Shown: positions 13,650-34,381 of the stretch, one piece after another
How the letters are laid out: every line of letters begins with the position of its first letter
How positions within the stretch are numbered: the stretch's first letter is position 1
Source of the DNA: Pedobacter foliorum
Lineage (GTDB): Bacteria; Bacteroidota; Bacteroidia; Sphingobacteriales; Sphingobacteriaceae
NCBI RefSeq assembly: GCF_013266735.1
Contig: NZ_JABSNU010000006.1
Location: 310,001 to 374,000 of the forward strand
Direction: 5' to 3'
Length of the DNA stretch: 64,000 bases
Program-made: the position numbers and the translations under genes
Notes under the pieces: model-generated
The model's input: the letters and a program-made list of their open reading frames with translations, nothing else
Told to the model about the DNA's origin: nothing
Database searches by the model: none

Positions 13650-15527
13650 ATGATAAACCCATTTAGTAAATTGGGGATAAGTGATGACGTTGTTAATGCT
13701 GTAAAGGATTTAGGTTTCGAAAATCCAACACCTATTCAGGAACAAAGTATTCCTGTGCTGTTAGAGGGCAATAACGATTTTGTTGGTTTGGCCCAAACAG
13801 GAACAGGAAAAACAGCCGCATTTGGTTTGCCGCTGTTAGAATTGATAGACTTTAAAAGCAATAAGCCTCAGGCATTGATTTTATGCCCTACAAGAGAGCT
13901 TTGCTTGCAGATTACCAGCGACATCAAGAATTTCTCAAAAAACATCTCTGGAGCTAATGTAGTTGCCGTTTACGGTGGCGCAAACATTATGCAACAGTTG
14001 CGTGAAATTAGAAACGGTGTACAAATTGTAGTGGCTACACCCGGCCGTATGTTGGACATTATTGGCCGTAAGGCTATAGATTTCAGTAATGTGAAATTTG
14101 TAGTTTTAGATGAGGCTGATGAAATGTTAAACATGGGCTTCCAGGAAGACATCAACGACATCTTGTCAACAACTCCTGACGACAAAAAAACATGGTTATT
14201 CTCTGCAACTATGCCTCCAGAGGTTAGAAGAATAGCTAAAAACTACATGGATCAGCCAGTTGAGCTAACCATGGGAACAAAAAACACAGGTAACGTAAAC
14301 ATTGAACACGAATACTATATCGTTCGTGCAAGAGATAAATACGCTGCTTTAAAACGTATTGTTGACTTTAATCCAGAAATTTTTGCAGTAGTATTCTGTA
14401 AAACCAAATTGGATACTCAAGACGTTGCTGAACACTTAATTAAAGATGGCTACAATGCTGATGCATTGCACGGAGATCTTTCTCAGCAACAACGTGATAA
14501 AGTTATGCAACGTTTCCGCGATCGTAACATGCAGTTGCTTATTGCTACTGACGTTGCTGCCCGTGGTATCGATGTAAATAACGTTACTCACGTAATCAAT
14601 TACTCTTTACCTGACGAAATAGAAAGTTACACTCACCGTAGTGGCCGTACCGGTCGTGCTGGTAAAACAGGTGTTTCTATCTGTATCGTTAACTCTAAAG
14701 AAATTGGTAAAATCCGTCAAATTGAAAGAATCATTGGTAAACAGTTTACTAAAGCTGAACTACCTACTGGTTTTGATGTTTGCGAAAAACAATTATTTGC
14801 TTTAGTACACAAAGTTCACAATGTTGAAGTAAACGAAAACCAAATCGAGCAGTACATGCCTCGTATTATGGATGAGTTTGCTGAACTAAGCAAAGATGAG
14901 GTAATTAAACGTTTTGCATCTTTAGAGTTTAACCGCTTTTTAGAGTATTACAAAAATGCACCTGATCTTAATTCATCTGCTGATGACAGAGGTGAGCGCG
15001 GAGAACGTGGTGAACGTGGAGAAAGAAGTCACAGAGGTAGCGATGGTTACACCCGTTTATTCATAAACTTGGGTTCTGTTGATGATTTCACAAGAGGTGA
15101 TTTATTATCTTTTGTATGTAACAACGGTAAAATCAGCGGAAAAAGCATTGGTAAAATCGACTTAAAAGGTGTTTATTCATTCTTTGAGGTTGAAGATGCA
15201 ACTGTTGAGTCATTATTCAGCAACTTTAAAGGAGTTGAATTTAACAACCGTGGTGTAAGAATCGAAAAAACTGCTGACAGTGATGGCGGTGGTCGTAGTC
15301 GTGGTGGTTCAGGCGGTGGTAGACGCGAAGGCGGAAGCTACGGTGGTGGAAGACGCGAAGGCGGAGGCGGTGAGAGAAGAAGCTACGGTGGTGGCGGAGG
15401 CGGAAGACGTGAAGGCGGAAACAGCGGTGGTGGTTTCAGAGATTTCTCTGGAAGAAGCCGTGAGGATAGAGGTGCAGGTGGAAGCGGAAGACGCGAAGGC
15501 GGAAACGACAGAAAACGCAGATCTTAA
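13650..15527 (+). CDS. DEAD-box ATP-dependent RNA helicase with DbpA-type RNA-binding domain and Gly/Arg tail
   Basis: At 625 residues this helicase is of the DeaD/CsdA type. The motifs in order are Q motif (PTPIQEQSIP), Walker A AQTGTGKT near 48-55, PTRELCLQI, TPGRML, DEAD at 154-157, SAT, RGIDVNNVTHVINY and HRSGRTGRAG. A DbpA-like RNA-binding domain follows at about residues 467-545. The last 75 or so residues are a low-complexity tail of repeated GGGRREGG-type units (roughly bases 15285-15520). Such enzymes unwind rRNA and mRNA structures, mostly in ribosome assembly and cold adaptation. It ends at a strong terminator. Confidence 0.95.
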   Translation: MINPFSKLGISDDVVNAVKDLGFENPTPIQEQSIPVLLEGNNDFVGLAQTGTGKTAAFGLPLLELIDFKSNKPQALILCPTRELCLQITSDIKNFSKNISGANVVAVYGGANIMQQLREIRNGVQIVVATPGRMLDIIGRKAIDFSNVKFVVLDEADEMLNMGFQEDINDILSTTPDDKKTWLFSATMPPEVRRIAKNYMDQPVELTMGTKNTGNVNIEHEYYIVRARDKYAALKRIVDFNPEIFAVVFCKTKLDTQDVAEHLIKDGYNADALHGDLSQQQRDKVMQRFRDRNMQLLIATDVAARGIDVNNVTHVINYSLPDEIESYTHRSGRTGRAGKTGVSICIVNSKEIGKIRQIERIIGKQFTKAELPTGFDVCEKQLFALVHKVHNVEVNENQIEQYMPRIMDEFAELSKDEVIKRFASLEFNRFLEYYKNAPDLNSSADDRGERGERGERGERSHRGSDGYTRLFINLGSVDDFTRGDLLSFVCNNGKISGKSIGKIDLKGVYSFFEVEDATVESLFSNFKGVEFNNRGVRIEKTADSDGGGRSRGGSGGGRREGGSYGGGRREGGGGERRSYGGGGGGRREGGNSGGGFRDFSGRSREDRGAGGSGRREGGNDRKRRS

Positions 15528-15547
15528 TTTACAGATCTTCTTAATAC

Positions 15548-15585
15548 AAAAAAGGCCCTTCAGAAATTCTGAAGGGCCTTTTTTT
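15548..15585 (+). terminator. Strong intrinsic terminator, DEAD-box helicase
   Basis: A near-perfect palindrome: AAAAAAGGCCCTTCAGAA pairs with TTCTGAAGGGCCTTTTTT. A GC-rich stem is followed by a run of T, 20 bp after the stop. The A-run on the other side makes it usable in both directions. Confidence 0.92.
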
Positions 15586-15612
15586 ATATCATTGTTATTA
15601 TTTAATCGATCG

Positions 15613-15693
15613 CGATCCTGAATTTATTTCAGGACCTCTAAAGAGAAGGAAAGCCTTGCTAGTGTGAGATGCTGAAATAAATTCAGCATGACG
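15613..15693 (-). repeat. REP-like paired palindrome, copy 1 (inverted orientation)
   Basis: Left arm 15613-15638 contains CCTGAATTTATTTCAGG; right arm 15666-15693 contains GCTGAAATAAATTCAGC. The spacer, read on the minus strand, contains CACTAGCAAGGCTTTCCTTC and aligns with the spacers of the copies at 23521, 31694 and 34299, so this copy is in the opposite orientation. Each arm is itself an inverted repeat. It sits in a tail-to-tail intergenic region. Confidence 0.85.
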
Positions 15694-15722
15694 AATCCTT
15701 CCTTCCATAGTAAAACATTTTC

Positions 15723-16055
15723 TTATGGTTTTACAGGTCTTTCTTTAATCTGAGATGCTTTAAGATAAATCTTAGCTCCTTTTTTATTGATATAGTATTT
15801 TTTGTTTTTACCGTCAATATATACGTCTGTCCCATCCGGAGCCATTTTTCCTTTGTAAACCTTATCAACCACTTTAGAGCTGCCCTTTACAGCAACCTCT
15901 GCAGTTTTATTACCAACTTTCGTTGCCGTTTTACCGATGGCTTTGCCTGTTTTATCAAGCACCGATTCCTTCTTCTTATCTTGTGCATTACTGCTAAAAG
16001 AAACTGCTGCACATAGAGCGAGAGCTAATAAGCCCGTTGCAAATTTTGTTTTCAT
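15723..16055 (-). CDS. Secreted hypothetical protein, 110 residues
   Basis: A small exported protein with a clear signal peptide (MKTKFATGLLALALCAAVSFSSNAQ, cut after NAQ). The mature part is very basic and lysine-rich: an amphipathic SVLDKTGKAIGKTATKVGNKTAEVAVKGSSK repeat-like helix (residues 30-62), then a compact YIDGKNKKYYINKKGAKIYL beta segment resembling PBCV basic adaptor-like or DUF-type hairpin modules. I cannot assign a function. Such proteins are common in Pedobacter-like genomes. It is a single gene downstream of gpsA on the same strand (45-bp gap). Confidence 0.75.
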   Translation of the reverse strand: MKTKFATGLLALALCAAVSFSSNAQDKKKESVLDKTGKAIGKTATKVGNKTAEVAVKGSSKVVDKVYKGKMAPDGTDVYIDGKNKKYYINKKGAKIYLKASQIKERPVKP

Positions 16056-23520: not shown

Positions 23521-23636
23521 ACGATCGTCATCCTGAATTTATTTCAGGACCTCACATAAGCAAGGCTTTCTTTCTCTTGCGAGGTCCTGACCTCGAAGAA
23601 GCTGCGAAGCAAAATAAATTCAGGATGACGGATCGT
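23521..23636 (+). repeat. REP-like paired palindrome, copy 2 (with 22-nt insertion)
   Basis: Left arm 23521-23553 and right arm 23581-23636, including outer ACGATC/GATCGT pairing. The core GTCATCCTGAATTTATTTC is shared with the other three copies. The right arm is interrupted at 23591-23612 by 22 extra bases inside its own loop. It lies between the convergent acnA and GH97 genes. Confidence 0.88.
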
Positions 23637-31473: not shown

Positions 31474-31602
31474 ATGCGCTTACCATCAGATTATAAAAGA
31501 AATTATAGGTTTAAAAGTGACAAGAGAAAGGATCGTTTAAGCTACATTATTGCTATTGTTATTTCGGCAATAGCGTTTTTGCTGATCTGGTATCTAGCTT
31601 AA
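31474..31602 (+). CDS. 42-residue single-helix membrane peptide
   Basis: ATG at 31474 and TAA at 31600-31602. The product begins MRLPSDYKRNYRFKSDKRKD (a very basic head) and ends in a hydrophobic helix from about residue 24 (YIIAIVISAIAFLLIWYLA) reaching the C-terminus. An AAAGGAG-type ribosome binding site lies 7 nt before the ATG, rare in this phylum. It lies 61 bp after rlmH on the same strand. The tail-anchored, N-in topology is predicted from charge. The function is unknown; small size means it could also be fortuitous. Confidence 0.6.
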   Translation: MRLPSDYKRNYRFKSDKRKDRLSYIIAIVISAIAFLLIWYLA

Positions 31603-31693
31603 AACAACAAGGGGATTTGGGGGTAAAACTGATAACCTTGCCGTCATCATAAGTTTGCAGGAACTATCAGTTATGCAGGAACTAATTAATCCC

Positions 31694-31780
31694 GCCGTCA
31701 TCCTGAATTTATTTCAGGACCTCGCACTAGTAAAGCCATCTTTCTCTTGAGAGGTCCTGAAATAAATTCAGGATGACGGC
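31694..31780 (+). repeat. REP-like paired palindrome, copy 3 (most intact)
   Basis: Arms 31694-31723 and 31751-31780 are reverse complements of each other over 30 bp, and each contains its own inner inverted repeat (CCTGAATTTATTTCAGG). The spacer (GCACTAGTAAAGCCATCTTT) aligns with the other copies. It lies between the convergent rlmH/small-peptide unit and the DUF5606 gene. Confidence 0.9.
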
Positions 31781-31809
31781 CGTTTTAAAAGACTATGCCC
31801 ATATATAAC

Positions 31810-31848
31810 AAAACAGGCTGCTCAACTTAACATTGAGCAGCCTGTTTT
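31810..31848 (-). terminator. Strong hairpin terminator of the cyclophilin/DUF5606 operon
   Basis: AAAACAGGCTGCTCAA (31810-31825) pairs with TTGAGCAGCCTGTTTT (31833-31848) over 16 bp with a 7-nt loop, 21 bp past the stop of the minus-strand gene. T-runs on both outer sides allow bidirectional use. Confidence 0.9.
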
Positions 31849-31869
31849 ATTTAATATTATATCAGCTAA

Positions 31870-34298: not shown

Positions 34299-34381
34299 CG
34301 TCATCCTGAATTTATTTCAGGATCCCTCACATACTAGGCAGCCTTTGTTTTGAGAGGTCCTGAAATAAATTCAGGATGACG
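34299..34381 (+). repeat. REP-like paired palindrome, copy 4
   Basis: Arms 34299-34328 (CGTCATCCTGAATTTATTTC then AGGATCCCTC) and 34352-34381 (GAGAGGTCCTGAAATAAATT then CAGGATGACG). The spacer is shortened (ACATACTAGGCAGCCTTTGT) compared with copies 2 and 3. It lies between the convergent gene at 33005 and the porin gene at 34522. Confidence 0.88.

Follow-up and report, generated by a model that had tools for sequence, protein, structure and literature searches.

CGTC-tagged REP dimers occur in many, probably recent, copies in a Pedobacter assembly in which no Y1 transposase was found

The 83-base palindromic element found at positions 15611-15693 of the window (the whole 64,000-nucleotide stretch of DNA that was analysed) appears, judging from its sequence, to belong to an already described superfamily of repeats, the CGTC-tagged REPs, and more precisely to be an inverted dimer of two such units. 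Our analysis makes a clear case for many, probably recent, copies of this element in an assembly without the expected enzyme, and covariation within single arms is well supported at one base pair of the hairpins (6:22, in an arm numbered from 0). The enzyme usually credited with spreading such repeats was not found in this assembly (G000 hereafter; 6.08 Mb in 43 contigs, with the window on contig C40), whose nearest named loci for one window protein belong to Pedobacter panaciterrae and Pedobacter sp. V48.

The first-pass annotation had placed a palindromic element at 15613-15693; the element is real and is one of four inverted dimers in the window, starting at 15611, 23526, 31696 and 34299. 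Its left arm (15611-15638, plus strand) is made of the tag CGCG, a degenerate form of CGTC, the stem ATCCTGAA/TTCAGGAC, the loop TTTAT and the tail CTC; it is followed by a spacer (15639-15665) that resembles those of other copies and by a right arm of the G:C type (15666-15693, read on the minus strand) with the tag CGTC, the stem ATGCTGAA/TTCAGCAT, the loop TTTAT and the tail CTC. As first reported, the plus strand reads GCTGAA-ATAAA-TTCAGC in the right arm and CCTGAA-TTTAT-TTCAGG in the left. The statement that each arm is standard in the three other copies stood for both arms of two dimers (31696-31723, plus strand, with 31751-31778, minus strand; 34299-34326, plus strand, with 34354-34381, minus strand; all of the C:G type) and for the left arm of the third (23526-23553, plus strand, C:G type), but not for its right arm (23581-23630, minus strand), which is a long-loop variant. 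The window contains 11 matches to CTGAA-N5-TTCAG when at most one mismatch is allowed, compared to an average of 2.39 over 100 shuffles, of which not one reached 11. None of the 23 Rfam matches obtained over 15400-15900 (E up to 1) attained the gathering score. The dimer at 15611 lies just past a terminator-like hairpin (GGCCCTTCAG..CTGAAGGGCC, 15554-15578) located 3' of the upstream helicase gene. This hairpin is near-identical in the nearest genome found (G126), from which its stem differs by a compensatory change at the outermost pair (GGCCC..GGGCC vs TGCCC..GGGCA).

Over the whole genome, the arm core CTGAAWWWAWTTCAG gave 268 forward and 269 reverse matches, the listed rows showing the same places on either strand; the reversed core, used as a control, gave 0. 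We then surveyed 1,564,088 bases (26% of the genome) using a score over 19 fixed letters of CGTCATNCTGAANNNNNTTCAGNNNCTC, which assumes a 5-base loop, rewards a match to the tag and leaves free the pair 6:22, positions 23-24 and the loop. This survey returned 135 arms scoring at least 15, compared to 2 matches in the reversed sequence, both at 15. Neighbouring arms were inverted with their tags outward in 54 of 56 pairs, the 2 others being in other orientations, and the spacing was 55 or 56 in 41 of the 54 inverted dimers. The 25 remaining arms were single, although several of them are dimers with a variant second arm, and partner arms with a long loop or a 4-base loop also occur beside the 5-base-loop core; the survey comprised 78 elements in all. 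The tag was CGTC in 107 of the 135 arms, in a scan that rewards it, and the arms end with a 3-base tail that is mostly CTC. In the flanks of the dimers, there is weak conservation of T at position -1 and of C at position -4. The elements sit 3' of genes: using crude gene calls, 70 of the 78 could be placed, 30 between convergent genes, 39 between unidirectional genes and 1 between divergent genes, when the 626 intergenic gaps taken as background were 80, 390 and 156, respectively.

The pair 6:22 was C:G in 97 arms, T:A in 17, G:C in 12 and non-Watson-Crick in 9. It was therefore Watson-Crick in 126 of the 135 arms when 78.8 were expected by independence (maximum of 93 in 5000 shuffles), and it showed the highest mutual information among all arm column pairs (0.80, the next being 0.29). 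Ten relatives behaved alike, with 6:22 paired in 138 of 150 listed rows vs 68.1 expected and with all four Watson-Crick types represented; in both sets the counts take in arms or rows of shared descent, arm families included, so that they are not independent events. The compensatory change at the inner stem end, first noticed in the 15611 copy, thus extends to the whole genome and to its relatives. Pair 5:23 was T:A in 127 of the 135 arms, while 4:24 was A:T in only 51 and A.C in 80; the remaining stem pairs are near-invariant in G000, partly because the scan fixes those letters. Among 14 listed rows of a genome from a different family of the same class (G201), 8:20 was C:G in 9 and T:A in 5, and 10:18 was A:T in 13 and C:G in 1, each pair varying jointly. 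Another genome of that class (G202) gave 140 matches of another CGTC form, with G.A at 9:19 and A.G at 10:18, each in 20 of 22 typed rows. The loop is nearly invariant in G000 arms. Over the same 150 rows of the ten relatives, loop bases 12 and 15 were T:A or C:G in 146 vs 77.2 expected, and it is possible that these two bases form an inner pair closing a 2-base loop, with a bulged T.

Sorting the 54 dimers by their pairing at 6:22 showed that 46 kept both within-arm and between-arm pairing, 5 within-arm pairing only, none between-arm pairing only and 3 neither. Among the 8 dimers whose arms differ at 6:22, pairing was within-arm only in 5 and between-arm only in none. The same sorting at 4:24 gave 11 dimers with both, none with within-arm pairing only, 27 with between-arm pairing only and 16 with neither. 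The arm hairpin is thus kept at pair 6:22 and not at its base, 4:24: when covariation over genomic copies was compared within and between arms, as the first-pass annotation had suggested, the former prevailed at 6:22 and the latter at 4:24. The arm types matched at position 6 within 47 of the 54 dimers (shuffle mean 33.3). According to the first-pass annotation, the left arm of the 15611 copy no longer paired with the right one, which was overstated: since the 15-base core is nearly self-complementary, pairing of the two arms persists along it, and a long stem with mismatches is still predicted for this copy. In this copy, the gap between long-range and local folds was small with DNA parameters (-16.0 vs -14.9) and larger with RNA parameters (-29.2 vs -23.9), and in all 54 dimers the best local-only fold was outdone by a fold with pairs spanning more than 30 bases. 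Exchange of a whole arm may explain the swap in its right arm as well as two fresh mutations do; receipt of a whole arm is possible because G:C arms occur elsewhere (12 of 135) and because spacers are alike across dimers of different arm types.

Hybrid dimers were also found, in which the hairpin is retained and the between-arm pairing is lost. Partner arms with an unrelated hairpin and the same tag and tail are present at C40:22361, C1:73304 and C3:6773 (of 121 first arms, 20 lack a standard partner, and these three are among the 20); a fourth lies within C40:182160, one of the 5 dimers with within-arm pairing only, in which the spacing is 96 and a third hairpin stands between the arms. When these four partner arms were folded as DNA, the fold energies of three were matched by 0, 1 and 5 of 200 shuffles, and that of the C3:6773 arm was unremarkable (reached by 33 of 200). 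Altogether, the covariation at 6:22, its recurrence in ten relatives and the hybrid dimers with unrelated hairpins support the original reading of the element as two paired, REP-like hairpins.

Di Nocera, De Gregorio and Rocco (2013, PMC3733652) described CGTC-tagged REPs from five phyla, Bacteroidetes among them, reported no transposase dedicated to these repeats and proposed that they are either dying relics or users of borrowed enzymes. They have an 8-9 bp stem that opens with paired A and T, a 4-5-base loop and an unpaired tail that is mostly CCA; they are mostly inverted dimers, they lie between convergent or unidirectional genes and rarely between divergent ones, and they are not associated with transposases (PMC3733652). 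The Pedobacter units resemble them by their CGTC tag, their short hairpin with a 5-base loop, the AT beside the tag and the short unpaired tail, as well as by their mostly inverted dimers, partly conserved spacers and location 3' of genes. No Y1 or RAYT match was obtained in G000, but 2 of 20 Y1 loci in relatives have CGTC-tagged pairs nearby and IS110 pieces lie next to arms in G000. The Pedobacter units differ by their CTC tail and by the A.C found at 4:24 in most arms. By stem and loop length, the nearest family is CGTC-2, a number that is not certain when judged from the text of PMC3733652. dRS3 of Neisseria and RPE-4/RPE-6 of Rickettsia, which that article equates with CGTC-1 and CGTC-4 units, can be likened to the Pedobacter units by description, as other families of the superfamily. 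With GTAG REPs and REPINs, the element shares two inverted hairpins, a 5' tetranucleotide, a high copy number and a location at gene 3' ends, but its tag is CGTC rather than GTAG or GTGG, and no RAYT was found in G000, hence none flanked by such a REP. A further difference from GTAG REP/RAYT systems is that, in relatives, most of the Y1 loci examined (18 of 20) lack a CGTC-tagged pair in their vicinity. The word Pedobacter does not occur in the text of PMC3733652 or in the available part of PMC12306157, and no title or abstract on this repeat family in Pedobacter was found in a search that left subscription literature mostly outside.

G126 is 95-96% identical to G000 over aligned blocks, and the same pattern finds 14 arms in it, compared to 224 in G000; 800 kb of G126 hold a single arm core. 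Both flanks of 15 of the 78 elements were found in G126 and the element was absent at all 15 sites. At two of them (EL4 and EL59) G126 retains an arm remnant and at a third (EL10) the remnant of a different CGTC arm; at least some of the absences are therefore losses. At the 31696 site, a short hairpin is found instead of the dimer in G126, G083, G002, G066 and strain O48, and at the 15611 site the element is missing from G126 and from three P. panaciterrae/V48 loci, the orthologous sites of P. panaciterrae and sp. V48 being too diverged for their junctions to be read. Because these relatives lack the element at both sites, a gain in G000 is favoured, and the pattern of presence and absence suggests that CGTC dimers probably spread recently in the G000 lineage. 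When 31600-31850 was compared with five relatives, the intergenic hairpin appeared strongly divergent in sequence and always palindromic, with one form in G126, G066 and O48, another in G083 and V48, and neither of these in G000. At 34299-34381, two P. panaciterrae strains carry a different CGTC dimer, while G126 and V48 carry a remnant, as if this site were a hot spot.

At the 15611 site, the G000-specific piece is 134 bases long vs 14 in G126 and thus longer than the dimer, and it exceeds the dimer at all or nearly all of the 15 compared sites, where G126 has other short sequence; at about 9 of the 15, this is a different terminator-like hairpin (by eye), in places bounded at the hairpin feet. 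No direct repeat of 3-10 bases flanks any of the 54 dimers, 2-base direct matches were seen in 11 vs 5.7 expected, and in 6 of the 54, vs 0.43 expected, the two outer flanks show mutual complementarity over 5 bases. Neither these dimers nor the sites compared with G126 revealed a clean target duplication or insertion point: with no flanking direct repeat, a specific piece longer than the dimer and partly complementary flanks, the insertion point is not defined.

Several arms are associated with insertion sequences or longer units. Pieces of the IS110 family are found within or next to CGTC arms at the starts of G000 contigs C1, C3 and C39 and at L213 (1141-2700). Among these pieces are a partial IS110 gene at the start of C1, whose non-coding end is common to C3 and C39 and directly adjoins the inner portion of an arm, and a 343-aa frame on C42, next to a dimer whose left arm is of the G:C type. 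CGTC arms may be landing sites for IS110 pieces. REP sequences are described as insertion targets of IS elements in the available part of Tobes and Pareja 2006 (PMC1525189); the IS110-family and other pieces found here in or beside arms are like that case, in which, as far as that part of the article goes, the arms are target and not cargo. At C39:292001-292357, a piece with ends CTGTTGTCCGG..CCGGACAACAG lies inside an arm, about 13 bases of which are repeated on both sides, and contig C2 starts inside an apparent second copy of this piece. Six T:A-type dimers (C40:65845, C39:269079, 381873, 388142, C2:141427 and C22:89896) are contained in a longer unit whose terminal inverted repeats are close to GAGGGTGTCCAAAAAGG; at all three comparable sites, G126 has a plain terminator-like hairpin.

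The first-pass annotation had inferred that these elements are substrates of RAYT transposases. A search of G000 gave no Y1_Tnp match at E 0.001 (controls matched in 5 of 14), and a Pedobacter RAYT profile of five members gave none even at E 10. The assembled genome thus yielded no RAYT or IS200-type transposase, the tag is CGTC and not GTAG, and that inference is not supported in G000. A RAYT or Y1 enzyme encoded in the assembled genome was accordingly rejected as the mover, and so was a reverse transcriptase, as RVT_1 had no match in G000. The search for a plasmid carrier of the element gave no match; 15 stretches matched viral contigs. Since the assembly is in 43 contigs, a replicon may have been missed. 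The best explanation, which we hold with moderate confidence, is that the elements are inverted dimers of CGTC-tagged REP units, and that these dimers are probably non-autonomous and moved in trans. Each 28-base unit, which would act as a recognition module, begins with the unpaired CGTC tag, continues with a hairpin that has a loop of 5 bases and ends in a short tail; the part of the hairpin that is kept is pairs 5:23 to 11:17 (about 7 bp). The two units of a dimer are inverted, with their tags on the outside and usually 27-28 bases of spacer between them. Hairpins exposed as single strands, for example on the lagging-strand template, would be cut and joined by a trans-acting enzyme, which would not be a recognisable Y1 transposase of the G000 assembly, and each hairpin would be preserved by selection or by the moving enzyme itself. 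Dimers at gene 3' ends would probably be transcribed as RNA hairpins.

Mobilisation by a Y1 enzyme (RAYT or IS200-like) that the lineage has lost, or that is carried by an unassembled or passing replicon, seems rather unlikely to us, but it is retained as the first rival because of a genus-wide correlation and of two loci. Among 145 genomes of the genus, 96 have arms and 82 have Y1, and their counts correlate (Spearman 0.61, a value that ignores phylogeny), arms being present in 75 of the 82 genomes with Y1 and in 21 of the 63 without. The hairpin with a 5' tetranucleotide would also suit TnpA-REP, which requires such a structure according to the available parts of PMC6006769 and PMC8266576. 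Against this, G000 is the richest of all in arms and has no Y1, 14 genomes of the genus have at least 10 arms and no Y1, and the four nearest genomes (G126, G083, G002 and G066) have neither Y1 nor a credible RAYT-profile match, the one in G126 being at E 0.3 with three stops. Moreover, among 20 chosen loci with one Y1 gene each, a CGTC-tagged inverted pair was found within 260 bases of the gene in only 2: L207, with CGTC dimers of the same arm type upstream, and L204, with one pair of another type downstream. Other palindromes adjoin the Y1 gene in the six printed flanks, including that of L204.

Two further explanations were considered. It is improbable, in our view, that no transposase is involved and that intergenic hairpins or terminators are exchanged by short-homology recombination or template switching, CGTC dimers being carried along. 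The oversized G000-specific pieces and the other terminator-like hairpins of G126, with some boundaries at hairpin feet, fit such exchanges, but random breakpoints would have lost both the conserved ends and the fixed arm order that the 54 copies display. In addition, 199 kb chained between G000 and G126 contain only 11 small gaps, 6 of which hold elements, so that wholesale exchange is not general, small exchanges within aligned blocks falling outside this count. That the dimer is instead one long-stem element, such as a MITE of a DDE insertion sequence, with incidental hairpins, strikes us as decidedly improbable. The long-range folds that win in every dimer, the arm types that match within dimers above chance, the between-arm pairing retained at 4:24, the T:A-type dimers within a longer unit with terminal inverted repeats and the outer flanks that are complementary beyond chance in some copies would all suit a long stem; the lack of any 3-10-base flanking direct repeat, and thus of a target site duplication, the hybrid dimers with unrelated arms and the exclusively within-arm bias at 6:22 argue against it.

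If dimers of CGTC-tagged REP units are indeed moved in trans by an enzyme, the covariation would mark what this enzyme must recognise, namely the tag and pairs 5:23 to 11:17. The covariation of loop bases 12 and 15 hints that the loop is smaller and carries a bulge, and a bulge is needed by the E. coli TnpA-REP, as stated in the available part of PMC8266576. The mover question is also testable through the differences between two close genomes that hold 224 and 14 arms, neither with a Y1 match. We tentatively propose that CGTC dimers multiplied recently in one lineage of a small clade that yielded no Y1 transposase or RAYT, in a genome with no reverse-transcriptase match, and that what spreads this superfamily may therefore be a mover of another kind that recognises hairpins, or a process of the host by which entire hairpins are exchanged at the ends of genes. 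If true, either one would answer a question that has been open since 2013.
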